This document shows, piece after piece, positions 33,531 through 52,808 of a stretch of 64,000 nucleotides of DNA; positions within the stretch are counted from its first letter, which is position 1, and each line of letters begins with the position of its first letter. The stretch covers positions 806,001 through 870,000 of the forward strand of contig NZ_CP083692.1 in the NCBI RefSeq assembly GCF_020096995.1, read 5' to 3'. A model generated the notes under the pieces. That model saw only the letters and a program-made list of their open reading frames with translations, did not search any database and was not told the DNA's origin. The translations under genes were made by a program, and so were the position numbers. Source of the stretch: Leucobacter sp. Psy1. Lineage in GTDB: Bacteria; Actinomycetota; Actinomycetes; Actinomycetales; Microbacteriaceae.

Positions 33531-34925
33531 ATGGAAGACTGGACCCAAACCCTGGGCGCGGGTCCGCTGCTCGGCATTGCTGCCGTCGCGGTCGCCCTCA
33601 TCCTGTTCCTCGTCATCAAGGTGCGGTTGCACGCGTTCCTCGTGCTCGTCGTCGTGTCGCTGCTGACGGCGCTCGCGACCGGCATCCCCGCCGACGCGAT
33701 CGTGCAGACGTTGCTCGACGGATTCGGCGGGACGCTCGGCAACGTCGCTCTGCTCATCGGCCTCGGTGCGATCCTCGGCCGCCTCGTGGAGTCCTCGGGT
33801 GGCGCCAAGGTCGTGGCGGAGAAGATGGTGAGCATCTTCGGCGAGAAGCGTGCCGCGTTCGCACTCGGCGTGACCTCGCTGATCCTCGGCTTCCCGATCT
33901 TCTTCGACGCCGGCCTCATCGTCATGCTGCCGATCATCTTCGCGGTGGCGCGTCGAATCGGCGGCAAGAACCTGCTCCTCTACGGCTTCTCGGGAGCCGC
34001 GGCGTTCTCGGTCATGCACATCTTCGTGCCGCCGCACCCCGGCCCGGTCGCCGCGTCCGAGTTCTTCGGGGCGAGCCTCGGGCTCGTGCTGCTCGTCGGC
34101 ATCGTCATCGCGTTCCCGCTGTGGTACCTCACCGGCTACCTGTGGGCGAAGTTCGTGAACTCGAAGGTCCCGATGATCGTCCCCGACCTGTTCGGTCGCA
34201 CCGACGAGGACCAGCCGAAGAACCCGCCGAAGTTCGCCACCGTCGTGGCGATCCTGCTCCTCCCGCTCGTGCTGATCCTCTTCAACACCGGCCTCAACGC
34301 GCTCACGACCGCCGGCACCGTCGACGGCGACGCGACCTGGGTGCAGTGGCTGTCGCTCATCGGCACGGCGCCCGTCGCACTGCTCATCTCGGCGCTCATC
34401 GCTATCCTCGTGCTCGGCAAGTTCCGCGGTGAGACCGGCAGCGCGCTCGACAAGCTCGTCGACGGCACGTTCGGTCCTGTCGCGTCCGTGATCCTCATCA
34501 CCGGCGCCGGCGGCATGTTCGGCGGCGTGCTCCGCACCTCGGGCATCGGCGACGCGCTCTCCGACTCGCTCTCCGACCTCGGGCTCCCGGTCATCCTCGC
34601 CGCCTACGTCATCGCGGTCGTGCTGCGCGTGGCGCAGGGCTCGGCGACCGTCGCACTCGTGACGGCTGCCGGCCTGATGGCCCCGGCGGTGATGTCGGGT
34701 GGCTTCACCGACCTGCAGATCGCCTGTATCACGCTCGCGGCCGCGGCCGGTTCGGTCTTCGCCAGCCACGTGAACGACTCGGGCTTCTGGCTCGTCGGCA
34801 AGCTCATGAACATGGACGTGAAGACGACGCTGAAGACGTGGACGGTGCAGCAGACGCTGATGTCGCTCGTCGGCTTCGCGCTCGTGTACGCCATCTACGG
34901 CATCGCCTCGGCGGTGGGCGTATGA
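33531..34925 (+). CDS. gntP: GntP-family gluconate:proton symporter
   Basis: A 464-residue permease with about twelve hydrophobic segments of the gluconate permease (GntP) family. Characteristic blocks are LIGLGAILGRLVESSGGAKV, GFPIFFDAGLIVMLPIIFAV, HIFVPPHPGPVAASEFFGA, GAGGMFGGVLRTSGIGDAL, VAQGSATVALVTAAGLMAP and FASHVNDSGFWLVGK. It takes up gluconate or a related sugar acid using the proton gradient. It starts at ATG 33531 with GGAG upstream and ends in an ATGA overlap with the SDR gene, so permease and enzymes are coupled. It is divergent from gntR. Confidence 0.93.
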   Translation: MEDWTQTLGAGPLLGIAAVAVALILFLVIKVRLHAFLVLVVVSLLTALATGIPADAIVQTLLDGFGGTLGNVALLIGLGAILGRLVESSGGAKVVAEKMVSIFGEKRAAFALGVTSLILGFPIFFDAGLIVMLPIIFAVARRIGGKNLLLYGFSGAAAFSVMHIFVPPHPGPVAASEFFGASLGLVLLVGIVIAFPLWYLTGYLWAKFVNSKVPMIVPDLFGRTDEDQPKNPPKFATVVAILLLPLVLILFNTGLNALTTAGTVDGDATWVQWLSLIGTAPVALLISALIAILVLGKFRGETGSALDKLVDGTFGPVASVILITGAGGMFGGVLRTSGIGDALSDSLSDLGLPVILAAYVIAVVLRVAQGSATVALVTAAGLMAPAVMSGGFTDLQIACITLAAAAGSVFASHVNDSGFWLVGKLMNMDVKTTLKTWTVQQTLMSLVGFALVYAIYGIASAVGV

Positions 34926-35689
34926 GCGGCCTCTTCGATCTCGAGGGCCGTCTGGCCCTCGTCACCGGCTCGTCGCGAGGGCTGGGCAGATCTCTCGCGA
35001 CGTCTCTTGGGCAGGCGGGCGCCCGCCTGCTGCTGCACGGCCGCGACGCCGCGGCACTCGCTGAAACCCGCGTCGAGGTGGAAGCCGCGGGCGGCACCGT
35101 CGCCGGCGAGCTCCGCTTCGACGTCACCGACGCCGCAGCGGTTGAGACGGCGATCGGTGAGATGCTCGCCGAGCACGGGGTCCCCGACATCCTGGTGAAC
35201 AACGCCGGCGTGCAGCGACGGGCCCCGTTCACCGAGTTTCCGGTAGACGACTGGGACGCCGTCATCACGAGCAACCTGTCGAGCGTGTTCTACGTGTCGC
35301 GGTTCGTGACCCCGGCGATGGCCGAGCGCGGTTCGGGCAAGGTCATCAACATCGGATCGGTGCAGTCGCAGCTCGCCCGCCAGACCATCGCCCCCTACTC
35401 GGCGAGCAAGGGCGGTGTCGCGATGCTGACGAAGGGCATGGCGGCCGACCTCGCCCGCTTCGGCGTGCAGGTCAACGCGATCTCGCCAGGCTACTTCGCG
35501 ACCGAGATGAACCGGGCGCTCGTCGAGGACGAGGCGTTCGATGCCTGGCTCAGGGCCCGCACGCCAGCCCAGCGGTGGGGTGATTTCACGGAGCTCTGGG
35601 GCACCCTCGTGTACCTGGCCTCGGATGCGTCGAGCTTCGTCTCGGGGCAGAACATTTTTGTCGACGGCGGAATGACGGCGGTGGTGTGA
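34922..35689 (+). CDS. Gluconate 5-dehydrogenase-like SDR
   Basis: A 255-residue short-chain dehydrogenase. The cofactor motif reads LVTGSSRGLGRSLA (residues about 13-26), then NNAGVQRRAPF, the catalytic serine in IGSVQSQLA and YSASK as YxxxK, with INPGYFATEM-like wording seen as ISPGYFATEMNRAL. This pattern matches 5-keto-gluconate reductase/gluconate 5-dehydrogenase (IdnO/Gno), which interconverts 5-ketogluconate and gluconate. Context supports this: gluconate permease before, idonate dehydrogenase after, and kinase at the end. The start overlaps the permease stop (ATGA) and its stop overlaps the next start (TGATG). Confidence 0.85.
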   Translation: MSGLFDLEGRLALVTGSSRGLGRSLATSLGQAGARLLLHGRDAAALAETRVEVEAAGGTVAGELRFDVTDAAAVETAIGEMLAEHGVPDILVNNAGVQRRAPFTEFPVDDWDAVITSNLSSVFYVSRFVTPAMAERGSGKVINIGSVQSQLARQTIAPYSASKGGVAMLTKGMAADLARFGVQVNAISPGYFATEMNRALVEDEAFDAWLRARTPAQRWGDFTELWGTLVYLASDASSFVSGQNIFVDGGMTAVV

Positions 35690-36732
35690 TGCGTGCAGCG
35701 TTCATCGATGGCAAGGACCAGCTCGAGGTGCGCGAGGTCGCGACGCCGGAGCCCGGAGCGGGTGAGGTGCGGATCCGTGTCGACTACGTCGGGATCTGCG
35801 GTTCCGACCTGCACTACTACTTCGAGGGCGCGAATGGCGAGTACGCGGTACGCGAGCCGCTGATTCCCGGCCACGAGCTGTCGGGCATTGTCGACCTCGA
35901 CCCCTCGGGCACCTGGTCGGCGGGGACGCCGGTGACAGTGCACCCGGCTCGGTTCGGCACCTCGGAGCCGGCGATCGCTGAGCAGCCGCACCTCTGGCCG
36001 AACGGCTCCTACCTCGGCAGTGCGGCGACCTGGCCGCACACTCAGGGCGCCATGAGCGAGTACCTGGTCGTGCGCGAGGACATGCTGCGCCGTCTTCCCG
36101 GGTCGCTGCCGGTGCGCCGCGCGGTGCTCGCCGAGCCCCTGGCCGTCGCCCTGCACGCCGTGAGCCGAGTCGCCGACATCGGCGCCGAGATCGCCGGTGC
36201 ACGTGTGCTCGTCTCGGGGGCGGGGCCCATCGGCCTGCTCACGGTCATCGCCGCGAAGGCGCGCGGGGCGGCGCACGTGACGCTCAGCGACGTGCTCGCC
36301 GAGCCGCTCGCCCGCGGCACCGAGCTCGGCGGCGAGTTGAGCGCCGACGCGACGCTGCAGGTCGGCGTCGACGACGTGCCCGTCGCCGCGTTCGACGTGG
36401 TCTTCGAGTGCTCGGGAGCATCGCCGGCAATCACCACCGCTGGCGTCGCCGTGCGCCGGCGCGGCACCGTCGTGCAGGTCGGCATGGTGCCGAATGATCC
36501 GCGCCCCGTGGGCCTCGCACCGATCATCTCGAAGGAGGCGCAACTGCTCGGCACGTTCCGCTTCCGCGACGAGATCGATGACGCCGTGGCGCTGCTCGAC
36601 GCGCAACCCGAGATCGAACGGGTCGTCACGCACGAGCGGTCGCTCGACGAGGCGGTCGCTGCGTTCGATCTCGCGAAGGACTCCCGGGAGTCGAGCAAGG
36701 TCGTCGTCGCGCTCCCCGGAGCGCAGGCGTAA
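35689..36732 (+). CDS. L-idonate 5-dehydrogenase-like zinc alcohol dehydrogenase
   Basis: A 347-residue medium-chain dehydrogenase. The catalytic zinc site is seen in YVGICGSDLHYYFEG and PLIPGHELSG, and the nucleotide-binding fold in VLVSGAGPIGLLTVIAAKARG. It should oxidise L-idonate to 5-ketogluconate, which the preceding SDR reduces to gluconate. The segment that usually carries four cysteines binding a structural zinc (roughly residues 85-115) has none here: it reads HPARFGTSEPAIAEQPHLWP, so that lobe has no zinc. ATG 35689 overlaps the SDR stop; GTG 35686 is also possible. The gluconokinase follows after 30 bases. Confidence 0.85.
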   Translation: MRAAFIDGKDQLEVREVATPEPGAGEVRIRVDYVGICGSDLHYYFEGANGEYAVREPLIPGHELSGIVDLDPSGTWSAGTPVTVHPARFGTSEPAIAEQPHLWPNGSYLGSAATWPHTQGAMSEYLVVREDMLRRLPGSLPVRRAVLAEPLAVALHAVSRVADIGAEIAGARVLVSGAGPIGLLTVIAAKARGAAHVTLSDVLAEPLARGTELGGELSADATLQVGVDDVPVAAFDVVFECSGASPAITTAGVAVRRRGTVVQVGMVPNDPRPVGLAPIISKEAQLLGTFRFRDEIDDAVALLDAQPEIERVVTHERSLDEAVAAFDLAKDSRESSKVVVALPGAQA

Positions 36733-36762
36733 CGTACAGGCACGAGCAGGAGATCGGACATC

Positions 36763-38289
36763 ATGAGCGCAGCGGCTGACGTCGTCATCGGCGTCGACAT
36801 GGGAACGACGGCGACGAAGGCCGTCGCCTACACGCCGGACGGCCAGCAGGTGGCCGCGGCTCAGCACGGGTACCCGCTCGAGGAGCCGGAGCCCGGCTGG
36901 GCGGTGCAGGATCCGGAGCTGATCCTCGCCGCGGTGCTCCACGCGGTCGCCGACGTCGTCACCGAGGTGGGGGCGGACCGGATCGCCGGCCTGTCGTTCT
37001 CCTCGGCCATGCACAGCCTCATGGCGCTCGACGCCGACCTCACGCCGCTCACCGGCGTCGCAACCTGGGCCGACACCCGCGCGACGCTGCAAGCCGAGCG
37101 GCTCCGTGGATCGGCCCCCGGCCTCGCGCTCCACCAGCGCACGGGCACCCCGATCCACCCGATGTCGCCGCTCATGAAGCTGGTCTGGTATCGGGAGCAG
37201 GACCCGGAGACCTGCCGTGCCGCAGCGTTCTGGGTCGGCATCAAGGACTGGGTGCTCCAGCGCATGACCGGCGTGTTCGTGACCGATCACTCTCTCGCTT
37301 CGTGCTCGGGTCTGCTCGATATCTACCGTCTCGAGTGGGATCCCGAGGCCCTGCAGCGCGCCGGTATCACGCCGGAGCAGCTGCCCCGACTCGTGCCGAC
37401 GACGACGGTGCTCGAAGGGCTCGTCGCGTCGACGGCCTCGGCGACGGGCCTCCCGGCATCGACGCGCGTGGTGGTCGGTGCCGGCGACGGTCCGCTCGCG
37501 AACCTCGGCGTGGGCGCCGTGCGCCCAGGCGTCGCCGCGTGCTCCATCGGCACGAGCGGCGCCCTGCGGGTGGCCGTCGAGGCGCCGGCCGTCGATCCTC
37601 AGGGCGGTGTGTTCTGCTACGCGATCACCGAGAACCGGTGGGTCATCGGCGGGGCGATCAACAACGGCGGCGTGGTGCTCAACTGGGTGCGCGACGAGAT
37701 CGCGGCCGGCCGCGAGCTCTCGACTCCCGAGCTGCTCGATGCGGCCGCGTCGGTCCCCGCTGGCTCCGGTGGACTCATCATGCTCCCGTACCTGCTGAGC
37801 GAGCGCGCCCCGCACTGGAGCGGTCTCGCCCGGGGCGCCTACATCGGCCTGACCCGCGCGCACACCCGTGAGCACCTCGTGAGCGCCGCGGTCGAGGGCG
37901 TGGCCATGCAGCTCGCGCTCGTGCTCAAGTCGATGCGGGCCGCGGGCCTCGACATCGATGAGATCCGCGCGACCGGCGGGGTGACCAAGCACTCGCTGTG
38001 GCAGCAGGTGCTCGCCAGCGTGTTCAACACCCGCATCGACATGCTCGAGGAGCAGGAGGGGTCGGGCCTGGGGGCCGCGCTGCTCGGCATGGAAGCGCTC
38101 GGGCTCATCGAATCCATCGACGTGGCCGCCGACATCACCCCGGTGAAGCACTCGGTGTCGCCGCAACCCGAAGACGTCGAGACGTACCAGGCGCTGCTGC
38201 CGATCTTCGACAATCTCTACACGGCGCTCCTACCCACCTACACGCAGTTGCGCAGTCAGGCAGAGCTGCTGCCGATGACGCGGGACTGA
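36763..38289 (+). CDS. gntK: Gluconokinase (FGGY carbohydrate kinase family)
   Basis: A 508-residue sugar kinase of the FGGY family, which phosphorylates gluconate (or a related polyol or ketose) with ATP. The first phosphate motif is VIGVDMGTTATKAVAYTPDG, followed by GLSFSSAMHSLMALD, TWADTRA, and C-terminal motifs AINNGGVVLNW, GLTRAHTREHLVSAAVEGVA and IRATGGVTKHSLWQQVLASV. FGGY members are hard to separate by sequence alone (xylulokinase, gluconokinase), but its place behind a gluconate permease and two dehydrogenases makes gluconokinase most likely. The product 6-phosphogluconate enters the pentose phosphate pathway. The next gene is convergent, its stop touching this one. Confidence 0.85.
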   Translation: MSAAADVVIGVDMGTTATKAVAYTPDGQQVAAAQHGYPLEEPEPGWAVQDPELILAAVLHAVADVVTEVGADRIAGLSFSSAMHSLMALDADLTPLTGVATWADTRATLQAERLRGSAPGLALHQRTGTPIHPMSPLMKLVWYREQDPETCRAAAFWVGIKDWVLQRMTGVFVTDHSLASCSGLLDIYRLEWDPEALQRAGITPEQLPRLVPTTTVLEGLVASTASATGLPASTRVVVGAGDGPLANLGVGAVRPGVAACSIGTSGALRVAVEAPAVDPQGGVFCYAITENRWVIGGAINNGGVVLNWVRDEIAAGRELSTPELLDAAASVPAGSGGLIMLPYLLSERAPHWSGLARGAYIGLTRAHTREHLVSAAVEGVAMQLALVLKSMRAAGLDIDEIRATGGVTKHSLWQQVLASVFNTRIDMLEEQEGSGLGAALLGMEALGLIESIDVAADITPVKHSVSPQPEDVETYQALLPIFDNLYTALLPTYTQLRSQAELLPMTRD

Positions 38290-39078
38290 TTACGCCCGAT
38301 CACTCTTCGTCGCTGCCGCGCCGTCGTGGAACCCGGTGGCCTCGGGAGGCATCGTCTCGGGCGCCTGTACTCGTGCTGCGTTGAGCACCATATCGATGTG
38401 TGCATCGCTGAGGCGACGAGCGGTCGCAGGGTCCGGTTCGAGCATCGCGTTGACGAGGCGGAGATGCTCCATGTACATCTTCTCCGAGTCCTGCAGGTTC
38501 CAGCTGATGAGGTCGATGAGCAGGAGCGAACCCGTGACCAGGCGGTGCTCGGCGAGCTCGAGTTCCCGATTCCCCGCGAGGGCGACCATGGCGACGTGCA
38601 AGTCGACGTGAGCCATCGCCGTCGCGGTGGGCTCGTGCGCCGTCGACTGGCTCGCGTACGCCGCGAATGCAGCCCGCAACCGGCTTCTCGACTCCTCTGA
38701 GGCGCGATCGCAGTGGTCGGCCGCGAAGCCTTCGATGAGCTTGCGCGCTTCCAGAATGTCCGTCACCTCGCCGGGGGAGTACGAGCGTACTCGAGCGCTC
38801 TTGTAGGGTTCCTGGTCCAGGTAGCGCTCGGCCACGAGGAGGTTGAGGGCCTCTCGGATCGTCGTCCGCGACGCTGCGAATCGCTCGGTCATCCACTTCT
38901 CGGTGACGGGTGCGCCCAGTGAGAGCTCGCCGCTCAGAATGAGCTGTTTCACCATTTCCGCGATGAACTGCGGGGCCGGCGGCCCCTCGGCGTGACTCGT
39001 CCGTTTGGACGCGACCCGCTTCGGTACTTCGATGCGCCCCATCGCGCTCTCCCGGATCTCCCGTGATCCCTTGTCCAT
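38290..39078 (-). CDS. GntR/FadR-family (FCD) regulator of the argH-like operon
   Basis: A 262-residue regulator. After a basic N-terminal extension of about 30 residues come the winged helix-turn-helix (FIAEMVKQLILSGELSLGAP, VTEKWMTERFAASRTTIREA, LNLLVAERYLDQEPYKSA) and an FCD domain (VDLHVAMVALAGNRELELAE with ligand histidine, and AMLEPDPATARRLSDAH). ATG 39078 or ATG 39042 (with GGGAGAG upstream) are both plausible starts. It is divergent from the seven-gene operon at 39223-46232, and sites matching the FadR-type TTGTNNNACA pattern lie in the gap, so it is the probable local regulator. Confidence 0.87.
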   Translation of the reverse strand: MDKGSREIRESAMGRIEVPKRVASKRTSHAEGPPAPQFIAEMVKQLILSGELSLGAPVTEKWMTERFAASRTTIREALNLLVAERYLDQEPYKSARVRSYSPGEVTDILEARKLIEGFAADHCDRASEESRSRLRAAFAAYASQSTAHEPTATAMAHVDLHVAMVALAGNRELELAEHRLVTGSLLLIDLISWNLQDSEKMYMEHLRLVNAMLEPDPATARRLSDAHIDMVLNAARVQAPETMPPEATGFHDGAAATKSDRA

Positions 39079-39096
39079 GCTCGCCCCACACATAAA

Positions 39097-39188
39097 TGTC
39101 TAACAAAGTTCCAGATGCTCTTGTCAGCCTACACATTTTCGGGTTAACTAAGGTCTCAAGATTGTTGGACAGTACGAATTGTCCGATA
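39097..39188. promoter_or_regulatory. FadR-type operator-like sites in the gntR-argH-like gap
   Basis: TTGTTGGACA at 39162-39171 and, on the opposite strand, TTGTTAGACA at 39097-39106 both fit the FCD/GntR core TTGTNNNACA and differ at one base. A further inverted pair GGACA (39167-39171) / TGTCC (39180-39184) and the 11-mer ATTGTCCGATA (39178-39188) follow. Binding by the divergent GntR protein is inferred. Confidence 0.55.
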
Positions 39189-39222
39189 ATCCGTTCCAGT
39201 TTTCTCGAGGAGGAGTGCATCT

Positions 39223-40671
39223 GTGAAGAGCCAGGAAACCGTCGGTGGCGTCCACGACGAGGGCAAAGTGTGGGGTGGCCGTTTCACGAACGGACCCGAT
39301 CCCGCGCTCGAACGCATCTCTCGCTCTCCGCGTCGCTACTTCGATCTGGTGCCCCAGGACATCCGCGGTTCCATCGCTCACCTGGGTGAACTCGAACGGT
39401 GCGGTCTCGTGACTCGCCAGGAGCGGATCCGGCTCGTCGACGCCCTCGAAGAGATCGGGGAGCGATTCGACGCAGGTGAGATCAGCCCGGCGCCGACTGA
39501 TGAGGACGTTCACGGGTTCCTCGAGCGGCAGTTGATCGAACGGGTCGGCGCGCTCGGCGGGAAGGTGCGCGCCGGCCGGTCGCGCAACGACCAGACCGCG
39601 AACGACCTCCGGCTCTGGTTGCAAGACCGAACGGCCGAGATCGCGCGCGGTGTGGAGCAGCTCGTCGATGCGCTCATCACGCGATCGGAGGACGCCGGCG
39701 GTGCCATCGTCCCCGGGTTCACGCACCTGCAGCCGGCGCAGCCGGTGCTGTTCGGGCATCAGCTGCTCGCTCACGCGCAGGCTCTGGCGCGCGATCTCAA
39801 GCGGCTCGGAGCCGCGCGGGAGTCCGTGTCCCTCTCGCCGCTCGGCGCGGCAGCGCTGGCGGGCAGCTCATTCCACGGCGACCAGATCGCGATGGCGCAC
39901 GAGCTCGGCTACCGGGACGTCGTCGGCAACTCGATCGACGCGGTCGGGGCCAGGGACCATGTCATCGACTTCCTCTACGCCGGGGCGTCGATCGGCACGA
40001 GCCTCTCCCGGCTGGCAGACGAGCTGATCCTCTGGGGCTCCCCGCAGTTCGGTTGGATCCGGCTGCACGACGCGTTCTCGACCGGCTCCTCGATCATGCC
40101 GCAGAAGAAGAATCCCGATATCCCGGAGTTGACCCGCGGGAAGGCGAGCCGGCTGCAGGCCAACCTGACGGGAATGCTCGGGGTCATGAAGTCGGTGCCC
40201 TTCTCGTACAATCGTGATTTCTCCGAGGATAAGCACTACGCGTTCGACACCGCCGACGTACTCGAAACGGTGCTTCCGGCGATGACCGGGTTCGTGCGAT
40301 CGATGGCCTTCGTCCCTGAGCGGATGTCCGAGCAGGCGGCTGAGGGGTTCACTCTCGCGACCGAGCTCGCCGACTGGATCGCCGAGCAGGGCATCCCCTT
40401 CAGCGATGCGCACGATATTACTGGCCGCGCTGTCGTCGCCTGCGAAGAACGGGGCATCGGGATCGAGGATCTGAGCGCCGCTGACCTCGCCGAGATCGAT
40501 CCGCGGATCACTCCCGACGTGCTGCCTCGCCTGACACTCGAGTCTGCGGTCATGCGGCGGGGAGGCGCCAATGGCACGGCGCCGTCTCGGCAGAACGATC
40601 AGCGCGCCAGGCTTCGGAGCGAGATCGCTGAGTACCTGGCGGTGTTCGTGACGAAGGAGGACCAGGGATGA
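39223..40671 (+). CDS. Argininosuccinate lyase-family protein (catabolic paralogue)
   Basis: A 482-residue member of the fumarase/aspartase superfamily close to ArgH. Motifs: KVWGGRFTNGPDPALERISR, EDVHGFLERQLIERVG, RSRNDQTANDLRLWL, GFTHLQPAQPVLFGHQLLAH (catalytic His), and GSSIMPQKKNPDIPELTRGK (flexible signature loop with the catalytic Ser). These enzymes cleave N-substituted aspartates to fumarate plus an amine. It is not next to other arginine genes but heads an operon with an ABC importer, two deacetylase-fold hydrolases and a PrpD protein, so a different substrate, as in aminopolycarboxylate-type lyases, is likely. GTG 39223 with GAGGAGG upstream is chosen. It overlaps the permease start. 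Confidence 0.85.
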   Translation: MKSQETVGGVHDEGKVWGGRFTNGPDPALERISRSPRRYFDLVPQDIRGSIAHLGELERCGLVTRQERIRLVDALEEIGERFDAGEISPAPTDEDVHGFLERQLIERVGALGGKVRAGRSRNDQTANDLRLWLQDRTAEIARGVEQLVDALITRSEDAGGAIVPGFTHLQPAQPVLFGHQLLAHAQALARDLKRLGAARESVSLSPLGAAALAGSSFHGDQIAMAHELGYRDVVGNSIDAVGARDHVIDFLYAGASIGTSLSRLADELILWGSPQFGWIRLHDAFSTGSSIMPQKKNPDIPELTRGKASRLQANLTGMLGVMKSVPFSYNRDFSEDKHYAFDTADVLETVLPAMTGFVRSMAFVPERMSEQAAEGFTLATELADWIAEQGIPFSDAHDITGRAVVACEERGIGIEDLSAADLAEIDPRITPDVLPRLTLESAVMRRGGANGTAPSRQNDQRARLRSEIAEYLAVFVTKEDQG

Positions 40672-41558
40672 CCAGTACAGCTCTCTCGAACTATCGAGTC
40701 GTCAGGCTCAAGCACATCGGGCGGTATCTCGCCGCGGCCGTGACCGTCGCGATCCTCGCCTCGATCGTCATCGCGTTCGCTCGCGCTCAGATCGATTGGG
40801 CGACAGTCGGCGAGTTCTTCACTGCTCGGACGATCCTGACTGGGTTCGTGATCACGATCGTGCTGACGATCATCTCGATGGTCATCGGCATCGTGCTCGG
40901 CGTGCTCATTGCCGTCATGCGGCTCTCACACAATCCGGTGGTCTCGGGAATCGGATGGATCTACGTCTGGGTGTTCCGCGGAACCCCCGTCTACCTGCAG
41001 CTGCTGCTCTGGTTCAACATCGCGCTCATCTTCCCGATGATCGGGATCCCCGGCCTGGTCGAGGCGCGCACGGTCGATCTCGTGACTCCGATCGTCGCCG
41101 CGATCCTCGGACTCGGGCTCAACCAGGCCGCGTACACGTCGGAGGTCGTCCGAGCGGGCATCCTCTCGGTCGACGAGGGGCAGACCGAAGCATCGAAGGC
41201 ACTCGGTATCAAGGGGACGCAGACGATGAGTACGATCGTCCTCCCGCAGGCCATGCGCGTGATTCTTCCGCCGGTCGGCAACGAGGTCATCGGCATGCTG
41301 AAGACGACGTCGCTGGCCTCGGCGATCGGTGCGAGCGAAATGCTGAATGAGGCGCAACACATCTATCTCGTCAACAACATGATCATGGAGCTGCTGCTCG
41401 TCACCGCCATCTGGTACCTCATCGCCGTGTCGGTGCTGTCGTCGATCCAGTACTACGTCGAGCGGTACTACGCCCGCGGCAGCACCACCGCCGCTCTGCC
41501 GCCGACGCCGTACCAGCGGGTCAAGAGTTTCTTCGGTACCCCAGGGAGGAAGTCGTGA
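40668..41558 (+). CDS. Polar amino acid-type ABC transporter permease
   Basis: A 296-residue inner-membrane permease of the HisM/GlnP family. After a cytoplasmic N-terminus, helix 1 lies at about 20-42, and the transport domain follows with [20 protein letters not shown], then [39 protein letters not shown] and the EAA loop [20 protein letters not shown], which contacts the ATPase. It starts within the end of the argH-like gene (ATGA) and overlaps the ATPase gene in the same way. One permease gene is present, so it should form a homodimer. It imports the substrate caught by the lipoprotein encoded at 42358. Confidence 0.92.
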
Positions 41559-42334
41559 ACACGTCACCCGCGCTCGTCCAATTGCGAGACATCCACAAAT
41601 CGTTCGGCCTCCACGAGGTGCTGAAGGGCATCGACCTCGATGTCCGGAAGGGCGAGGTGGTGTGCATCCTCGGCCCGTCGGGGTCCGGAAAGTCCACGCT
41701 CCTTCGCGCGATCAACTTCATTGAGCGACCCACGTCTGGGTTCGTGCACGTCGGTGAGGAGATCATCGGCTTTCGCCGCGATGCGAAGGATCCCGACCTG
41801 CTCCACGAGTTGCGCGAGGATCAGATCGCGACGCAGCGCGCCGCGATGGGCATGGTCTTCCAGCGCTTCAACCTGTTCCCGCACATGACGGTTATGCAGA
41901 ACATCACCCATGCCCAGAGGCTCGTCAAGGGAGTGAAGCTCTCGGAAGCTCAGAAGGTCGCCCAGAGCCTGCTCGACCAGGTGGGGCTCGGCGATCGAGG
42001 GAACTCCTACCCGCGTCAGCTCTCCGGTGGTCAGCAGCAGCGAGTCGCCATCGCGCGGGCACTCGCGATGACACCCGAACTCATGCTGTTCGACGAGCCG
42101 ACCTCCGCGCTTGACCCCGAGCTCGTCGACGATGTGCTCTCGGTCATGAAAGCGCTCGCGCAAGGCGGGCTGACCATGATCGTGGTGACGCACGAGATCG
42201 GGTTCGCCAAGGAGGTGGGTGACCGCGTGGTCTTCATGGACGACGGCGCGATCATCGAGCAGGGCACGCCAGCCGACGTCCTCGACAACCCCCAGCACGA
42301 GCGCACGCGCGCCTTCCTGTCGCGCGTGCTGTAA
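41555..42334 (+). CDS. Polar amino acid-type ABC transporter ATPase
   Basis: A 259-residue GlnQ/HisP-type ATP-binding protein. Walker A is [14 protein letters not shown], the Q-loop is [17 protein letters not shown], the signature [15 protein letters not shown] and Walker [17 protein letters not shown], followed by the H-loop [12 protein letters not shown]. An unusual 15-residue insert after the first strand ([17 protein letters not shown]) is seen in some amino-acid importers of this type. GTG 41555 overlaps the permease stop. It powers the importer of the operon. Confidence 0.95.
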
Positions 42335-42357
42335 CCCCCGGAAGAAGGAAAGAACAC

Positions 42358-43206
42358 ATGAAGCAGAAGATTCTCGGAGTCATCGCCGTCGGCGCCGTCC
42401 TCGCATTCACGGGCGGGTGCGCCAGTGCTGGGGGAGGGGAGACCGAAGATGGCGAGTTCTCGACGATCGTCGATGGCACTCTGACGGTCGGCCTGTCTCC
42501 GGATTTTCCACCCATGGAGTACATGGACGGAGAGACGCTCATCGGCAGCGACGTCGATCTGATCACCGCTGCGGCGGAGCGGATGGGCCTCGAGGTCGCG
42601 TTCGAGCATCAGAAGTTCGATCAGCTGATCAATTCGGTGCGCACGGATCGCGTCGACATCGTGATCTCCGGTATGTCCGACACCGTCGAGCGTCAGAAGA
42701 CGTTGGACTTCATCGACTACTACTCCTCTACGGGGCGCTTCTACACGCTGCCCGACCAGGCGAGCGAGTTCGGAGCGGAGACGGACGTGTGCGGGGCTGC
42801 TGTGGCGGTCAGCACGAAGACGGACTACTTCCCGGCCCTTCAACGGTTCAGCGCGGATGTCTGCGAGGCGGCCGACCTGCCTCCCGTGAACATCGTCGGT
42901 GCCGACTCGGGCGCCGCCGCACGCCTGCAGCTGGACCAGGGGCGTGCCGAGCTCGCGGTGCAGGGAGCGGAGAACCTGGCCTACTTCGAGCAGCAGGAAC
43001 CGGGGAAGTACGAGATCGTGCTCGACGTGCTGATCGACCAGCCCTTCGCCGCAGCGGTGAGAAAGGGCAATACGGAGCTCGCTGAAGCCGTTCGCGACGC
43101 GTTCCAGGAGCTCTACGACGATGGAACCACGGAAGAGATTCTGACCGAGTACGGGATCGAGCAGGGGCTGCGGGAGCCAGCGATCAACGAGGTCGGGAGT
43201 GAGTGA
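42358..43206 (+). CDS. Polar amino acid-type ABC transporter substrate-binding lipoprotein
   Basis: A 282-residue SBP_bac_3-family binding protein. The signal peptide ends in FTGGC, with Cys21 the lipid site. The ligand-binding core shows LTVGLSPDFPPMEYMDGETL, GSDVDLITAAAERMGLEVAF, then FDQLINSVRTDRVDIVISGM, the block that holds the alpha-amino acid backbone, and a second lobe with VCGAAVAVSTKTDYF. It has a clear ribosome site (GAAGGAAAG) before ATG 42358 and overlaps the following gene by eight bases. The ligand probably contains an amino acid moiety; the side-chain pocket is not readable from sequence alone. Confidence 0.92.
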   Translation: MKQKILGVIAVGAVLAFTGGCASAGGGETEDGEFSTIVDGTLTVGLSPDFPPMEYMDGETLIGSDVDLITAAAERMGLEVAFEHQKFDQLINSVRTDRVDIVISGMSDTVERQKTLDFIDYYSSTGRFYTLPDQASEFGAETDVCGAAVAVSTKTDYFPALQRFSADVCEAADLPPVNIVGADSGAAARLQLDQGRAELAVQGAENLAYFEQQEPGKYEIVLDVLIDQPFAAAVRKGNTELAEAVRDAFQELYDDGTTEEILTEYGIEQGLREPAINEVGSE

Positions 43207-44032
43207 CACCTCTCTGAAGACCCGGGCGGAGGAGTCTTCCGCCCGGGTCGTGCTCGCGTTCGACCTCGACGGGCCGACCGGCGCGGCCATGGTCGACGGC
43301 AGTATCTGGCGGCGCCCGGGCCACTTCACGCTCGGCGCGTACGGGCCGCATCGAGCGGTACCGCGCATCCTCGACGTGCTGCGTGATCGTGGCGTGCAGG
43401 CCACGTTCTTTACTCCAGCCTGGATCGTGCGCACCTGGCCGGAACTCTGCCGCCGAATCGTGGACGAGGGGCATGAACTGGCGGGTCATGGTGACCTGCA
43501 CGAATCGTTCTACGGCCGCAGTCGTGACGCTCAGGCCGGCATTCTGCGTCGGAGCCAGGAGACGTTTCGTCAGACACTCGGGCAGGCGGCCCTCGGGTTC
43601 CGCGCCCCGTCGGGTGATATCACCCGGGACACCCTCGAACTGCTGGTGGAGCACGGATACACCTACTCCAGCTCCCTGCGCAGTGGCGATCACCCCTTCG
43701 TCCACTCGGGTGTCCCGCTCGTCGAAATTCCCGCGAAGTCGCTGTTCGACGACTATTCCGTATTCGCCTACCATCGGGCGCCGCACTTCCCGATCGGCCT
43801 CGATCGGATCGCCCCGTACGCCCCCGTCTTCCGGAGCTGGATGGACGAGGTCGACGCGGCCGCGGAGGAGGGGGTCACGGTGGCGACGATCTGGCATCCG
43901 AAGGTGATCGGGACGCCGGGCCGGACGGTGCTGCTCGATGATTTCATCGGCGGACTCGTCGAGCGGAGCGATATCGAGATCATGCGCGCCGACGAGGTCG
44001 CGGCGAGTGCCGAGGAAGGGAGCGTGCGATGA
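43199..44032 (+). CDS. Polysaccharide deacetylase-fold hydrolase, first copy
   Basis: A 277-residue NodB-fold amidohydrolase. The metal triad is recognisable: Asp24 in AFDLDGPTG and His97/His101 in GHELAGHGDLHE. Further landmarks are LGAYGPHRAVPRILDVLRDR, GVQATFFTPAWIV and FRAPSGDITRDTLELLVEHG, with a long C-terminal arm ending HPKVIGTPGR. There is no signal peptide, so it is cytoplasmic and acts on a small molecule rather than a wall polymer, as do PuuE allantoinase and cyclic-imide hydrolases of this family. GTG 43199 overlaps the binding-protein stop, and its stop overlaps the second copy. Substrate unknown, but probably an amide or cyclic imide of the imported compound. Confidence 0.85.
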   Translation: MSDTSLKTRAEESSARVVLAFDLDGPTGAAMVDGSIWRRPGHFTLGAYGPHRAVPRILDVLRDRGVQATFFTPAWIVRTWPELCRRIVDEGHELAGHGDLHESFYGRSRDAQAGILRRSQETFRQTLGQAALGFRAPSGDITRDTLELLVEHGYTYSSSLRSGDHPFVHSGVPLVEIPAKSLFDDYSVFAYHRAPHFPIGLDRIAPYAPVFRSWMDEVDAAAEEGVTVATIWHPKVIGTPGRTVLLDDFIGGLVERSDIEIMRADEVAASAEEGSVR

Positions 44033-44892
44033 ACTGGCCGAATCACGCCGCATACGCGTTCGTCGTGACTATCGACGTCGACGGGGACCTGCCGCTCCTG
44101 GCGAAGCACCCCGGAAACGTCGAACGCATGAAGTCGCGATCGGCCGGCCTCTACGGGCCCGAGGTTGGCGTTCCTCGACTCCTCAGAGTGATGTCGGACC
44201 TCGGTATCGTCGCGCACTGGTTCACGCCTGGTGAGATCGCGCGACGCTATCCGCGCATGATCCGCGAGGTGCACGAGAGCGGTCAGCGGATCGGCGTGCA
44301 CGGCGACCGGCACCTCGATTTCGGTCGACTCGACTTCTCGGAGCAGGTGGAGGAGATAGTCGCGGGACGCGCGGCGATTCAGGAGATCATCGGCCAGGAG
44401 CCCCAGGGGTTCCGCACGCCGGCTGGGGAGTGGGCTCCAGGCTTTCCCGAAGCGATGGACCGTGCCGGGTTCACCTGGTCCTCATCTCTCGCCTCGGACG
44501 AGCTGCCGTTCCCGCTCACCGGGTCCGGTCTCATCGAGGTGCCGTTCCGCTACGAACTCGAGGACCAGCAGTACCTCGCGTACAACCTGGACCCGCCGTT
44601 CCCGCCTGGGTTGTCGCGAATCACTCCGCTGGAGTCGGTGGCCGACAACTGGTGGTGCGAGGTGCGCGGGGCCGAGCGGTTCGGAACCCTGGTGCATCTC
44701 CGGCTGAATGCTGAGGTCATGGGAACGCCAGGGCGGGCGCGCATGCTGCACCGATTCCTCGCGGAACTCGCGGGGCGCGGAACCGCCTGGTTCACCACGG
44801 GTGACGAAGTCGCCGCGCATTCCCGCAGTGCCGGAGCGGATCCCGACCATCCCTACGCGATGTTCATGAAGCTCGCCGCGGAGAACCGCTGA
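44029..44892 (+). CDS. Polysaccharide deacetylase-fold hydrolase, second copy
   Basis: A 287-residue paralogue of the preceding gene. The metal triad is Asp18 in VTIDVDGDLP and His91/His95 in IGVHGDRHLDF, with GLYGPEVGVPRLLRVMSDLG, GIVAHWFTPGEIARRYPRMI, FRTPAGEWAPGFPEAMDRAG and HLRLNAEVMGTPGRARMLHR. It lacks a signal peptide. The two copies share order of motifs but are clearly diverged in sequence, so they may act on successive or alternative substrates, or form a hetero-complex. ATG 44029 overlaps the stop of copy one (ATGA) and its stop overlaps the PrpD gene (TGATG). Confidence 0.85.
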   Translation: MNWPNHAAYAFVVTIDVDGDLPLLAKHPGNVERMKSRSAGLYGPEVGVPRLLRVMSDLGIVAHWFTPGEIARRYPRMIREVHESGQRIGVHGDRHLDFGRLDFSEQVEEIVAGRAAIQEIIGQEPQGFRTPAGEWAPGFPEAMDRAGFTWSSSLASDELPFPLTGSGLIEVPFRYELEDQQYLAYNLDPPFPPGLSRITPLESVADNWWCEVRGAERFGTLVHLRLNAEVMGTPGRARMLHRFLAELAGRGTAWFTTGDEVAAHSRSAGADPDHPYAMFMKLAAENR

Positions 44893-46232
44893 TGTCTCGC
44901 GCGCGTCGACTGGGTGCGTGGGTGAGCGGTCTTGACCGTGCAGACATTCCTCCGGACCTGATCGAGAAGCTGCGGAACCACTTCCTCGACACCGTCGGTG
45001 CGGCGATCGTCGGGGACGGGCGAGAGCCCGTACGGATCGCCTCCCGCGTGTTCTCGGCACCGGGGGAGACCCCGCTGCTCATCGACGGCGCACCGCGGCA
45101 CTTCGTCGATGCAGCGCGGGTGAACGCCGTCGCCGCGCACGCCGCGGAGATCGACGACACCGAGGGGTGCGACCATACGGGAGCCGTCGTCGTGCCGGTG
45201 CTGCTCGCCCTCTTGGAGGAGGTCAACTGCACGGGAGACGATCTGCTCGCCGCGATGGTTGCGGGCTACGAGGTGGGTCGACGCGTGCAGCAGGCGCTCG
45301 GCGGGTACGACGAGCACAACGGTGCCGGGTGGCACTCCACTGCTACGTGCGGCGTCTTCGCTGCTGCCGTTGCCGCGGCGCGGCTCATGCGTCTCGACGC
45401 TGCGCAGTGCAATGCCGCACTCGCTATCGCCGCGAGTTCGAGTGCTGGAAGCTGGGCATTCGCCGCCGACGGGTCGATGACTAAGCAGTTCCACGTCGCG
45501 GGGGCGGCGGGGAACGGTCTGCAGGCTGCACTGCTCGCTCGTGCCGGAGCGACCGGTCCTGAGGCCATCTTCGACGACATATGGGGTGGATACTTCGCAA
45601 CCCACGGCACGCCGCGGAGCAATCCTGACGCGCTCGCCGCAGGACTCGGCACCGAATGGCACGCAGAGCACTCCGCGATCAAGATGTATGCAGCCTGCCG
45701 TAGCGCTCACCCCGCGATCGACGGCGTGGTCGACCTCCTCAATAGCGGCGGCCCCGGCATCGACGACGTACGGCGGGTCGTTATCGAAGTCTCTCCCTTT
45801 CTCCGGCCGATGATCTGCCCGGAGAACCCCGGCTCCGTCGAGGCGGCCCGGATGAGCCTGCCGATTTCTCTGGCTCTGCTGTTCATGGGATCGCAGCTGG
45901 ACCCGGACGCGTACGCGGCGTTCGCCTCACCGCGGGTGGCGCGGATCACCGGTCGCATCCGCGTCGTCGAGACGGAGCGGCTCGACACCCGGCAGTCCGT
46001 TCGGGTGACGGTGCGCAGCGCCTCGCAGGAGTGGGTGGTCGAGCGCCGCTTCGCACGGGGCAGCGAGGGGGCGCCGTTCACCACGGAAGAGATTCGCGAC
46101 AAGTTCTGGCGCCTCGTAGTGCCGCGCATCGGTGAGCGTCAGGCGCGTCGAGCGATCGCATACGTCGATGCGCTGGGCGCGGATCCGGTGCCCACTTTTC
46201 CGGCCCTCCGGGAAACCGAGCCCGCGCAGTGA
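44892..46232 (+). CDS. MmgE/PrpD-family protein
   Basis: A 446-residue protein of the MmgE/PrpD family, whose known members include 2-methylcitrate dehydratase and itaconate- or aconitate-type dehydratases/decarboxylases. Landmarks are PPDLIEKLRNHFLDTVGAAI, VNAVAAHAAEIDDTEGCDHT, VVVPVLLALLEE, GWHSTATCGVFAAAVAAARL and AEHSAIKMYAACRSAHPAID. As last gene of the operon it may process the carboxylic acid released by the lyase or the hydrolases. It starts at ATG 44892 overlapping the preceding stop. The precise reaction cannot be told from sequence. Confidence 0.87.
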   Translation: MSRARRLGAWVSGLDRADIPPDLIEKLRNHFLDTVGAAIVGDGREPVRIASRVFSAPGETPLLIDGAPRHFVDAARVNAVAAHAAEIDDTEGCDHTGAVVVPVLLALLEEVNCTGDDLLAAMVAGYEVGRRVQQALGGYDEHNGAGWHSTATCGVFAAAVAAARLMRLDAAQCNAALAIAASSSAGSWAFAADGSMTKQFHVAGAAGNGLQAALLARAGATGPEAIFDDIWGGYFATHGTPRSNPDALAAGLGTEWHAEHSAIKMYAACRSAHPAIDGVVDLLNSGGPGIDDVRRVVIEVSPFLRPMICPENPGSVEAARMSLPISLALLFMGSQLDPDAYAAFASPRVARITGRIRVVETERLDTRQSVRVTVRSASQEWVVERRFARGSEGAPFTTEEIRDKFWRLVVPRIGERQARRAIAYVDALGADPVPTFPALRETEPAQ

Positions 46233-46258
46233 CCCGTTGGTTGCGGGTGCGATCCGAC

Positions 46259-47452
46259 TCAGCCCTCCGGATCGTTGAACGTCTCAGTGTCCTCGTTCCA
46301 ACCGGTCCAATCACCGAAATACAGCTTGCCGTCGTCCACCTCGACGCCGTCCCCGCCGATCTGAGGGGGATCGTTGGTTCCAGGAGCCTCGTGGGGTAGT
46401 GCATTGAGTGGGTCGTCCGCCAGCTCCTCGGAGTAGTCATTCTCCGCCTGGCTGACCGGTGCCTCAGCGATTCGGGGTGTCTCCGCGTCGGCCCGACCCT
46501 GCTCCTTCTTGCTTTCAGCATTGGGTGCATCGTTGTCGACAGACTGGGGGACTTCGGCGGGGCCGGCCGGCTCGGCGATCGGGGGAGGATCGAACAGGGG
46601 CTCGAGCGAGACCGTCACCGAGAATGAGGCGACGATGGTTGCCGACGTCGCGAGCGCCGGCACGAACTTCTCTTTCCACCCACGCGTCAGCGCGAGCAGC
46701 CCCGCCAGACTCAAGCCGACGGCCGTCGCTTGCTCGAGGAAGAGGCGGTAGCGCGACGGGCACGACTCGCACGTCTCCAGATGGCGCTCGGTGGCTTTCC
46801 GCGTTCGGGTGCCCCGCTTGCCCCAGCGGACCGTCCCGAAGTGTCGAACTGCCTTCGCGCAGTCGTGCGGAAGCGCTTCGACCGGGCGGTGCAGGCGCTC
46901 GATCCAAGCCTTACGCAGGCCCTCTCGTGCCCGCTTGAGCAGCACCGATGCGGCGTTCGGTGACAAACCCAGTTCCGAAGCGACATCCTGGACGGGGCGC
47001 TGCTCGACATCGACCGCGACAATGATCTCACGCCAGCGATCCGGTAGCTCCTGCAACGCGACCGCGGCCGCCCTCCGATCTTGCGCGTCGGTCAGTGCCT
47101 CGGCATGATCGGGTGCATCGTCGACCGCGAACTCTCCGAGGTCGTCGAGTGGACTGGTGCGGCGTTCCGCGTTCCAGTGCTTCACGAGTGCAGAATCGAT
47201 CGTCTTGAAGAGATACCCTCGAAACGATGCGGTCGGCCCGCCGCCGGAGCGCAGTGCCTGGAAGACCAGGGTGAAGGCCTCGGCCGTCGCGTCTTCGCCG
47301 GCTCGGGGGTCCTTCTTCAGCGCCCACCCCCGTGCACTGGCGTGGTGGCGGTCCCAAAGCACAGCGAGCGGCCAGGTGGCACCATCGCGAACGACGCCGC
47401 AGAGCTCCTCGTCGCTGAGCGTGCGTCCGGGATCCGGCGTTTCCCGCGTCAC
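46259..47452 (-). CDS. ECF sigma factor fused to zinc-finger anti-sigma-like, transmembrane and extracytoplasmic tail
   Basis: A 397-residue fusion. Residues about 15-90 are sigma region 2 (LAVLWDRHHASARGWALKKD, ATAEAFTLVFQALRSG, SFRGYLFKTIDSALVKHWNA) and about 130-185 region 4 (ALQELPDRWREIIVAVDVEQ, VQDVASELGLSPNAASVLLK). Then a zinc-finger-like motif HLETCESC near 225-232 matches the anti-sigma HxxxCxxC pattern, followed by two hydrophobic stretches (about 243-260 and 266-288) and an acidic, proline-rich C-terminus of about 110 residues, probably outside the cell. Sigma factor, its inhibitor and a sensor are thus one polypeptide. Its start overlaps the stop of the upstream surface-protein gene by four bases. 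Confidence 0.87.
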   Translation of the reverse strand: MTRETPDPGRTLSDEELCGVVRDGATWPLAVLWDRHHASARGWALKKDPRAGEDATAEAFTLVFQALRSGGGPTASFRGYLFKTIDSALVKHWNAERRTSPLDDLGEFAVDDAPDHAEALTDAQDRRAAAVALQELPDRWREIIVAVDVEQRPVQDVASELGLSPNAASVLLKRAREGLRKAWIERLHRPVEALPHDCAKAVRHFGTVRWGKRGTRTRKATERHLETCESCPSRYRLFLEQATAVGLSLAGLLALTRGWKEKFVPALATSATIVASFSVTVSLEPLFDPPPIAEPAGPAEVPQSVDNDAPNAESKKEQGRADAETPRIAEAPVSQAENDYSEELADDPLNALPHEAPGTNDPPQIGGDGVEVDDGKLYFGDWTGWNEDTETFNDPEG

Positions 47453-49337: not shown

Positions 49338-52300
49338 TCAGTTCACCTGAGCGCCCTTCCGGCGCGACTTCCAGATGAATGCCGTGCCGAGTGCGGCGAG
49401 CACCGCAGCGATACCGATCCACAGGAGCGATGCGGCACCGGTGTTGACGAGACCGCCGTCGGACTGGCCGCTCGTGTCGCCAGGCTCGCCGGGAGTACCC
49501 GGTGTGCCCGGCTCGTTCGGGGTGCCCGGCTCATCGGGCTCGATGGTGTTCGTCAGTGAGACCTCGGTATCGTCCGCCTGGCCGATCACGATCACCTCAT
49601 CCGAGAACGCCGCCGAGACCCAGTGTGCGCCGTCGATGTCGACCGGAGTTTCCTCGGTGAGCCGCACTTCGGCCCCCGCGGGCAAGCCCGTCACGCTGGT
49701 GGGAGTGCCGTCGGCAGTCACCGTGATCTGACCCGATCCGGCTTCGAAGCCGACACCGGCGTCGTAGGCGTAGTCGACGACGAAGGTCTCGCCCGGGTCG
49801 ACGAGGTCGGCGCCCGCACCGGCGATCGACTTCTGCACGGTGAACCCGCCCTCGCCGAGCGCGACCACGTTCTCGAGTGAGATGCCCGACACGGAGTCCT
49901 TCTCGATGACCGCGATGTTGCCCTCGGTGAAGGAGGCGGAGACCCAGTGGCCGTTCTTCGGGTCCTCAGGCGCGACCTCCGTGAGCGTCACCACGGCGCT
50001 GGCCGGGATGCCGTCGACCGAGGCCGTCTCGCCGTTCTTGACGGTGAGCGTGCCCTCACCGGCCGGGTACCACTCACCCTCGGGGTAGGAGTACTCGACC
50101 GTGAACTCGGTGTCGGCCGAGACGAGTTCTGCGCCGGAACCGGAGACCGCCTTCGTGACCGAGAAGCCACCGAGATCGCGTTCGATCGCGTTGGTCAGCT
50201 CGACCGCGAAGGTGGTCTGGTCGCCGATGGTGAACGTCGGATTGTCGAACTCGTACCCCGTCCACGTGCCGCCTGGCACCGCGACCGGTGCGGCTTCACT
50301 CAGTGTGACCTCGGTCCCGTAGGGGAGCGGGTCACTCGTGACCGTCTCACCATTGTTGAGCACGGTCAGCGTGCCCGATCCCGTTGCGGGGTCCGCTCCG
50401 AGGGCTTCGGGCAGCGTATAGGTGTAGTCCACCGTGAACGCCGCTTCCGGTGCGACGAGGTCTGCCCCGTCACCGCTGATCTGCTTCAGCACGGAGAAGT
50501 CGCCGTCGTTCCATGAGATCGGGTTGTCGAGGTCGATCGATACGACGGTGTCTTTCACCACTGTGAAGGTGCTCTCGCTGAAGTCGGGATCACCCCAGGT
50601 GCCGCCTTCGGGGTCCGCAATCTCGAGCTCGGTCAAGGTGATGGTCGCGCCCGCGGGGATTCCGTCGACCGTGCCCGTCTCACCGGCGCCGAACGAGATC
50701 TCGCCGTTGCCGGCGGGGAAGCCGTTGATCTCGGGGTATTCGTACGAGACCGTGAAGGTCGCGTCTTCGGGAACCAGACCGGCACCGTCGCCCGAAACGG
50801 ACTTGGTGACGGAGAATCCGCCGGTGTCCTGGGTGATGGTGTTCGTCACCTGGGCCGTGACGGGCTCCTCGCTTTCACCGATCGTGAGTGTCGTCGGGTC
50901 GATGACGGGTTCGCCCCAGGTCGCACCGGGCACGTTCGGCAGGTTCGCCTCGGTGAGCGTCACCTCGGCGCCGACGGGCAGGTCGCCGCTGGAGACCACG
51001 TCGCCCGAGATTGGCAGCTCGAGTGTGCCACTGCCGCCGCTGAAGCCCTTTTCGGCATCGGCAGGATACGTGTAGTCGAGTGCGAAGGTGAGGTCGTCGG
51101 CGAGGGGAACGCCGTCCTCGTTCACCACCGACTTCTGGGCCGAAAACGATCCGGTCTGCAGCGTTGCCTCGTTGACGAGACGGATCTCGGTGAGTGCGCC
51201 GAGCGTGCCGTTGCCGCCCGGGGTGAATGTCACCGTCTCGACTGGCTCACCCGAGGCGTCGAGGAACACCGGGTCGGCCCAGTTGACGTTGGCGGGATCG
51301 GTGGGTTTGACCTCGGTGAGCTCGACGACCGTGCCGCGGAAGAACTCCGGGCTGGTGAATGTCTCTCCGGCCCGGACCGTGAACGAGCGTTCGGCGGGCT
51401 CCTGGCCCGGTTCAGCCACCGTGTAGTTCACGGTGAACTCAGGGTTCAGGGTGGTGTCGCCGGTGAGTTCCTTGGTGACTGCGAACCTGCCGTAGTTCGC
51501 GCTCATCACGTTGCCGCCGGAGGTGTAACGCGTCGCGCTGCCGGTGGTGGGGTTGGAGCTGTTGCCGTCGATGCTCCACTCGGCGGCATTGCGGAAGACT
51601 CGATCGCCATTGGGTTGAATCTCGCCACCCGTGAGTGCTTTCACCTTCCACTGGACGATGTAGAAGCTGCCGTCGACGCCGCGCTGCGCACCCTGCGCCG
51701 GCGGATCGATGTCATTGCGCCAGTCCGATCCGCGGCCCTCGCGCGAATCGAAAGTGGCGGTCAGATCGCCGTTGCTCCAGGCCACACCTGCGTCGCGCAC
51801 CTGCCACCCGCTGACAGATTCCCGTCCCCAGCGGTCGTACTGCAGTGTGCTCGACTCGAGCACGCGGGGGTAGGTTCCATCGACGAGCAGTTCGTAGTCC
51901 TCTTCGTCCAGCAGATCCGTAACGGTGATCTCCTGCCCGGCGGGAATGCCGTTTTCGCCGGCGGGAACCTGGACGGTCCACTCGATCGTGTCGTCGGCCT
52001 TGTTGTACCACCCGTATTTACCGCCCCAGAGATCGGAGAACTCGCAGTTCTCGGTGCACCAGTTGTTGCTGGGGGTGACGGTGACCTCGCGTTCGATCTC
52101 GCCGAACACGAAGGTCTTCTCGACTTCCTCGCGGTTGTCGAGGCGGGTTTCGACGTTGATGAAGAAGCTCCCGGAGACCTCGTAGGGGTTCGCCTCGATG
52201 AACGCGTCGTCGACGGTGCAGGTGATCTCGGTCTCAGTGACGACGCACTCGCCGGCGACCTGATCATCCGGACCCATCATCGGGAAGGTGTCCGAGAGAC

Positions 52301-52580: not shown

Positions 52581-52808
52581 GTTGTGCTCTCCTCTGTGTG
52601 AACCGTGCGAGTACGGCGGTGCGAGCTGCGATCGGTGCTGCTGTACCGCCACCAGAGAAGAAGAGGGAGGATGCTGCGAGATGTGACGCGGTTCCTCGCA
52701 GAGATTCTGAGGGTGGGGGCAAATGCAGCCTCTGGGCCCGACCCGGGAGTGAGGCGCTGCCGTAAGCTGTGGAACCTATCGACACGGTGACTCGAGGAAG
52801 AGGGTGCG

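Follow-up and report, generated by a model that had tools for sequence, protein, structure and literature searches.

An accessory eight-gene cassette in Leucobacter sp. Psy1 with a second ArgH-type lyase, an ABC importer, paired NodB-fold proteins and a PrpD protein: a possible scavenging operon for N-succinyl compounds

The locus described here lies in a stretch of 64,000 nucleotides from Leucobacter sp. Psy1 (contig NZ_CP083692.1, positions 806,001 to 870,000), which we call the window and to which all coordinates refer. Seven open reading frames on the forward strand (39223–46232) and a divergent regulator gene on the reverse strand (38290–39093), which falls outside the limits first given for the operon, make up a set of eight genes. 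The first gene of the operon encodes an ArgH-type C–N lyase of 482 residues, the second argH of this genome (39223–40671; Lyase_1 and ASL_C2 domains). It is followed by the permease (40668–41558; BPD_transp_1, PF00528; TIGR01726) and ATPase (41555–42334; ABC_tran, PF00005) of an ABC importer, and by a family-3 solute-binding lipoprotein (42358–43206; SBP_bac_3, PF00497), in which a lipobox-like FTGGC can be read. Two NodB-fold proteins come next, NodB1 (43199–44032; Polysacc_deac_1, PF01522, 77.3 bits) and NodB2 (44029–44892; PF01522), and the last gene encodes an MmgE/PrpD-family protein with both N- and C-terminal domains (44892–46232; PF03972, 177 bits; PF19305, 77.3 bits). Successive genes are separated by −4, −4, +23, −8, −4 and −1 bases, and the regulator carries a GntR domain (PF00392, 49.1 bits) and an FCD domain (PF07729, 52.4 bits). 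Reading frames, domains and spacing thus all agree with the first-pass annotation, which had described a seven-gene, one-strand operon with a divergent FCD-type GntR regulator. The binding protein, permease and ATPase together constitute a PAAT-type importer set and, since the operon has only one permease gene, the permease is presumably a homodimer.

The eight genes form an accessory cassette, present or absent as a whole (38285–46276), flanked by a gluconokinase-type gene on one side and a sigma-like gene (46259–47452) on the other. In a close relative of the same genus, G940, the gluconokinase-type gene is 94% identical to that of the window and lies directly beside the sigma-like gene. A BLAST comparison aligns window positions 34380–38284 with G940 at 88.6%, and the alignment resumes at 46277; the 7992 window bases that hold the regulator and the seven genes face only 32 bases in G940, an empty site. 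Gain and loss would both fit this pattern. The NodB1 gene is found (E 1e-50) in three of 54 genomes of the genus. Two wider samples, which overlap, covered 396 genomes from the order and 394 from the class, and there the window's own genome alone has it.

A scan of genome contigs with the PrpD protein gave five loci, in Leucobacter sp. wl10, L. chromiisoli, Arthrobacter silviterrae, A. silvisoli and A. celericrescens. In all five the eight genes recur in unchanged order (divergent GntR gene, lyase, permease, ATPase, binding protein, NodB1, NodB2, PrpD), with lyases 57–81% identical to that of the window, so the gene set is not a chance arrangement. In L. chromiisoli a PIG3-type quinone oxidoreductase gene is inserted within the set, and a 60% relative of this gene lies beside the Shinella version of the operon. 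Searches of plasmids with tblastn matched the PrpD protein in 90 records (E 1e-30), the lyase in 154 (1e-60) and NodB1 in 184 (1e-20), many of the last being distant. The set, full or trimmed in its proteobacterial versions, is common to soil bacteria of two phyla, Actinomycetota and Pseudomonadota.

Twenty-four loci besides the window were compared. These were picked for a match to one component, so the counts that follow describe variants and not frequencies; L049 and L055 are from one species, L052 and L072 have identical protein accessions, and L057 and L058 lie on one plasmid. The full seven-gene order is seen in eight loci: the five from actinobacteria, Burkholderia stagnalis, B. pyrrocinia and one Caballeronia locus. 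Eight others combine the lyase, importer and PrpD genes with one NodB gene (two from S. meliloti, with S. fredii, Shinella, Agrobacterium, R. etli, Neorhizobium and Chelatococcus, the last having its NodB gene beyond the regulator). One locus has lyase, importer and NodB; in two others a different lyase accompanies importer, NodB1, NodB2 and PrpD; one (Paracoccus seriniphilus) lacks the lyase and one (Paraburkholderia) has a rearranged set. The remaining three have lyase and importer genes only, among them Shinella L072, which has no binding protein. In S. meliloti 1021 pSymB (L055, 11156–12447) the PrpD match is in two pieces, unlike the single piece of strain ml47 (L049), so prpD looks broken in strain 1021. 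On the B. stagnalis plasmid (L050) a second cluster at 768–7586, with an ABC importer, a (2Fe-2S) protein and two oxidoreductases, precedes the operon beyond a porin and a LysR gene, in an arrangement that we take to resemble opine or sarcosine-type oxidases.

The lyase matches the curated ArgH model TIGR00838 over its full length, at 491.6 bits against a cut-off of 279.5. It is nevertheless neither the sole nor the principal ArgH of this genome, whose other argH scores 562.7 bits against about 491.5 for the operon copy, and both types are present in five of five relatives. The lyase tree has 46 rows: 33 operon-type, 11 housekeeping-type and two separate lyases from Ensifer adhaerens and Rhizobium 11515TR. 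Among these rows are 13 of 14 proteins hand-picked from 120 listed; the fourteenth, X_P0272, was dropped for its missing N-terminus. The operon-type lyases are set apart from the other rows by a branch supported at 100/98 and adjoin the actinobacterial housekeeping ArgH proteins, while the E. coli and Anoxybacillus enzymes sit on long branches. Because a second argH is present and the clade is separate, the operon lyase is not the housekeeping enzyme, and the first-pass view of it as a paralogue holds.

Twelve checked active-site positions keep the same class of residue in all 33 operon-type lyases, and position 29 varies (Ser in 26, Cys in four, Ala in three). The two types part at Asp33 and Gln328, in what we take to be duck δ-crystallin numbering: all 11 housekeeping-type rows have both residues, the 33 operon-type rows have neither, and the window lyase has Tyr and Ser in their place. 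These residues presumably contact the arginine part of argininosuccinate, and their replacement throughout the clade makes it distinctly unlikely that argininosuccinate itself, with its cyclic anhydrides, is scavenged and split to arginine and fumarate. For such a role speak the score above the curated ArgH cut-off, the arginase and ornithine cyclodeaminase genes that lie beside the P. seriniphilus version, and the E. adhaerens and Rhizobium 11515TR operons, in which importer, NodB1, NodB2 and PrpD accompany a separate lyase (∼40% identity) that keeps Asp33 and Gln328 but has Arg for Lys289 and Phe for Tyr323. Probes for arginase, ureohydrolase and ornithine cyclodeaminase, on the other hand, found no match in the five actinobacterial loci. 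The two separate lyases also argue against one substrate being shared by every version of the operon.

The binding protein also bears on the substrate. In all 26 aligned binding proteins from these loci the equivalent of Arg77 is kept and that of Asp161 is Gly. In the excerpted text of PMC5740067, Ser72 and Asp161 of LAO bind the amino group of arginine, the carboxyl-binding Arg is conserved across LAO, OccJ and NocT, and the place of Asp161 is taken by Asn202 in OccJ and Ser207 in NocT. The loss of Asp161 may thus point to a solute with no free α-ammonium group but, taken alone, it is weak evidence; OccJ N202D resembles the wild type in octopine and arginine binding (same excerpt), and for this reason we count the loss as support and not as proof.

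The best solved relative of the PrpD protein is iminodisuccinate epimerase (2hp3, 3.4e-32). For this reason an isomerase or epimerase role, assigned here by analogy, is likelier than the clean-up of branched acids that the first-pass annotation had proposed. Of the two bases proposed for iminodisuccinate epimerase, His99 and Tyr145 (excerpted text of PMC7347537), the first has its equivalent in the operon proteins. At the position of Tyr145 all 20 operon PrpDs have Asn, as do all 28 rows of a broader alignment made from selected matches, so the operon proteins are a sister subfamily of the epimerase; the position of Arg100 in the related bsIRG1 is Cys in all 20.

These features bring in a further alternative, in which the operon serves to break down an N-substituted aspartate whose partner is an ordinary amine. 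The compound would be an opine or an aminopolycarboxylate resembling iminodisuccinate, ethylenediaminedisuccinate (EDDS), succinopine or aspergillomarasmine. NodB would open a lactam or imide, PrpD would epimerise the product, and the lyase would release fumarate and an amino acid. The closeness of PrpD to iminodisuccinate epimerase agrees with this, as do the binding-protein changes, which are common to opine-binding proteins, and the iminodisuccinate pathway of Agrobacterium tumefaciens BY6, which reportedly couples the epimerase with a stereoselective C–N lyase. The lyase, however, is far nearer to ArgH (435 bits to 6iem, which we take to be the M. tuberculosis enzyme) than to EDDS lyase (166 bits to 6g3d, presumably that of Chelativorans sp. 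BNC1), Tyr145 is absent from the operon PrpD, and an amine partner leaves the ureohydrolase and amidine-type neighbours described below unexplained. We regard this alternative as possible but on the unlikely side.

Of the two NodB-fold proteins proposed as hydrolases in the first-pass annotation, NodB1 is a complete PuuE-like hydrolase, judged by its residues. It has the motifs FDLDG, HGDLH, GFRAP and WHP, its nearest folds are 3rxz and the PuuE group, and none of the 13 NodB1 rows or the eight single NodBs lacks any of the six catalytic residues, which we assume to be the CE4 set. NodB2 of the window lacks the last catalytic His (WHP to LNA), and at least one of the six residues is lost from NodB2 in 13 of 13 pairs, which makes a second active hydrolase doubtful; six actinobacterial proteins lose only that last His and may retain residual activity. 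Two distant NodB1 relatives occur in other settings, one in a Paracoccus versutus operon with an amidase and two short-chain dehydrogenases (L062) and one in Agrobacterium CFBP6625 with a creatininase gene, near an isoaspartyl peptidase (L063).

Another alternative takes up the imide branch of the first-pass annotation: cyclic imides, hydantoins or other cyclic amides would be degraded, and once opened they would pass as a dicarboxylic product to the lyase and PrpD. This could draw on the PuuE fold group of NodB1, on the amidase or creatininase genes that adjoin its distant relatives, and on A. silviterrae, in which the operon is extended by genes for TRZ/ATZ-type and IadA-like amidohydrolases (IadA 254.1 bits, below the cut-off of 331.25), families that hydrolyse amidines, cyclic amides or isoaspartyl bonds. 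We nevertheless consider it very unlikely: both NodB proteins fall far below the PuuE cut-off of TIGR03212 (35.6 bits for NodB1 and 62.5 for NodB2, against 424.6), and three loci have lyase and importer with no NodB alongside, although one of those three replicons, that of Caballeronia SBC1, has a NodB-bearing locus elsewhere.

The neighbours of the operon in other genomes suggest a different partner for the succinyl group. A ureohydrolase gene directly follows NodB in Agrobacterium H25/79, Rhizobium CC-CFT758 and Neorhizobium galegae, and the nearest solved relatives of the H25/79 protein are 3-guanidinopropionase and guanidinobutyrase. The arginase and ornithine cyclodeaminase genes of P. 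seriniphilus and the two amidohydrolase genes of A. silviterrae also belong among these neighbours. Elsewhere in the window genome an agmatinase-type ureohydrolase is encoded that is 39% identical to the Agrobacterium protein, and five of five relatives have one too. From the ureohydrolase and amidohydrolase neighbours we infer a guanidino product, a connection newly noted here, and an ArgH-type enzyme that releases a guanidino compound would link them. Argininosuccinate and other N-succinyl guanidines close into five-membered anhydrides. The ring so formed is similar to the hydantoin ring opened by PuuE, and its carbons easily lose their stereochemistry. NodB1 and PrpD would thus each have a reason to be in the operon.

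We therefore tentatively favour, at rather less than even probability, a scavenging operon that imports an N-succinyl guanidine, hydrolyses it, corrects its stereochemistry and cleaves it to fumarate and a guanidino compound. The PAAT-type importer would take up an N-(1,2-dicarboxyethyl) compound, a carboxylate that has no free α-ammonium group. The likeliest is an N-succinyl guanidine: guanidinosuccinate, argininosuccinate (also as its cyclic anhydrides) or a molecule that resembles argininosuccinate but has no amino-acid head. In the cytoplasm NodB1, with its partner NodB2, would open a cyclised (iminohydantoin-like) or acylated form; PrpD would invert the wrong stereoisomer at the succinyl carbon; and the lyase would eliminate fumarate, freeing a guanidino compound that a ureohydrolase, encoded in the operon in some rhizobia and elsewhere in the window genome, could cut to urea. 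The N-succinyl part of this scheme is fairly secure; the lyase, the binding protein and PrpD all fit the imported N-substituted succinyl or aspartyl compound that the first-pass annotation had supposed; the guanidine part we infer. A stronger form is unlikely, namely a dedicated N-succinyl-guanidine pathway in which a two-part NodB hydrolase, one subunit active and the other having lost its catalytic residues in a different way in each lineage, opens the cyclic iminohydantoin, a PrpD epimerase corrects the stereochemistry, and an ArgH subfamily that has given up arginine recognition yields fumarate and a guanidino acid for conversion to urea, the whole spread as a cassette between Actinomycetota and Pseudomonadota.

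Several observations weigh against the N-succinyl-guanidine scheme. In E. adhaerens and Rhizobium 11515TR the importer, NodB1, NodB2 and PrpD go with a separate lyase that keeps Asp33 and Gln328, the contact of these two residues with arginine is itself presumed, the epimerase base Tyr145 is replaced, and the OccJ N202D variant behaves as wild type. In a by-eye alignment that uses what we take to be the guanidinium-binding acid position of LAO, the residue in the binding protein is not acidic, which would fit an arginine-like side chain poorly. The ureohydrolase gene is present in only three of the 24 loci, none of them actinobacterial, and the genomic ureohydrolase is found also in nine of 14 control genomes, so that its presence means little.

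The operon is probably GntR-controlled. The regulator gene is divergent in all five related loci; in all ten annotated proteobacterial versions a LysR gene adjoins the set, the GntR gene being the actinobacterial counterpart. Three candidate operator copies resemble a consensus drawn by eye, ATTGTCNGACAAT, with three mismatches at 39095–39107, two at 39161–39173 and one at 39178–39190. Sequences within three mismatches of this 13-base motif number 14 in six GntR–lyase intergenic regions (1038 bases) against 15 in the other ∼170 kb from those sources, a contrast that is only descriptive because the consensus came from those regions. A consensus scan of 38200–46600 found no sigma-70-type promoter. 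In an S. meliloti tolC mutant, SMb21094–97 were down 10- to 21-fold on arrays and argH2 was down 4.5-fold by reverse-transcription PCR, which fits nitrogen scavenging.

In the open-access literature, to which our search was confined, we found no functional description of the gene set or of the S. meliloti locus tags. The earlier statement that no pathway with this gene set had been described stands to that extent, but the logic of lyase plus epimerase is described for iminodisuccinate (cited in the excerpted text of PMC7347537). We place the operon among catabolic operons for N-substituted aspartates, as a variant for which we found no published description. The operon-type lyase clade is probably catabolic, and is importer-linked where its neighbours were seen. 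Annotation pipelines assign its members, as a second 'argininosuccinate lyase', to arginine biosynthesis, S. meliloti argH2 included; because the clade is probably catabolic and importer-linked, such assignments are likely to be mistaken, and with them any metabolic model that relies on them. Proteins P0278–P0360 include many Pseudomonas ArgH relatives of 475 residues, of which the two in the tree, P0278 and P0279, fall in the operon-type clade with Tyr33 and Ser328; judged from these two, the large Pseudomonas set probably belongs to the clade as well. The NodB1/NodB2 pair, for its part, lends itself to testing the idea of an enzyme that works with a decayed partner.

Near a sigma-like gene, the window encodes a large protein on the reverse strand (49338–52652) with six DUF5979 matches.

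The operon can be set against several characterised systems. Like the OccJ and NocT importers, that of the window has a family-3 binding protein that keeps the Arg for carboxylate binding and lacks the Asp for ammonium binding; it differs in having Gly, not Asn or Ser, at the Asp place and in its guanidinium-side residues, as compared by eye, and its operon has no opine oxidase. The lyase shares with housekeeping ArgH the full-length TIGR00838 match and the 12 active-site positions, but is a second copy in a catabolic operon context, in a separate clade (100/98) that has lost Asp33 and Gln328. With EDDS lyase of Chelativorans sp. BNC1 it shares a superfamily and, presumably, the conversion of an N-substituted aspartate to fumarate and an amine; the two are not orthologues, the match reaching only 166 bits where the best ArgH entry gives 435. 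PuuE allantoinase and the cytoplasmic NodB-fold hydrolases (3cl6, 3rxz) differ from the window proteins, which score below the PuuE cut-off and in which NodB1 is paired with an incomplete-motif NodB2. NodB1 has the Asp and His-x3-His motif of the metal-dependent CE4 enzymes, which PuuE is not known to have. The BY6 pathway for iminodisuccinate likewise joins an MmgE/PrpD protein, in which the His99 equivalent is kept in the operon version, to a C–N lyase acting on an N-substituted aspartate. The operon departs from it in having, in its PrpD, Asn for Tyr145 and Cys at the position of bsIRG1 Arg100, in drawing its lyase from the ArgH clade, and in that importer genes, the NodB pair and a GntR regulator are also present.

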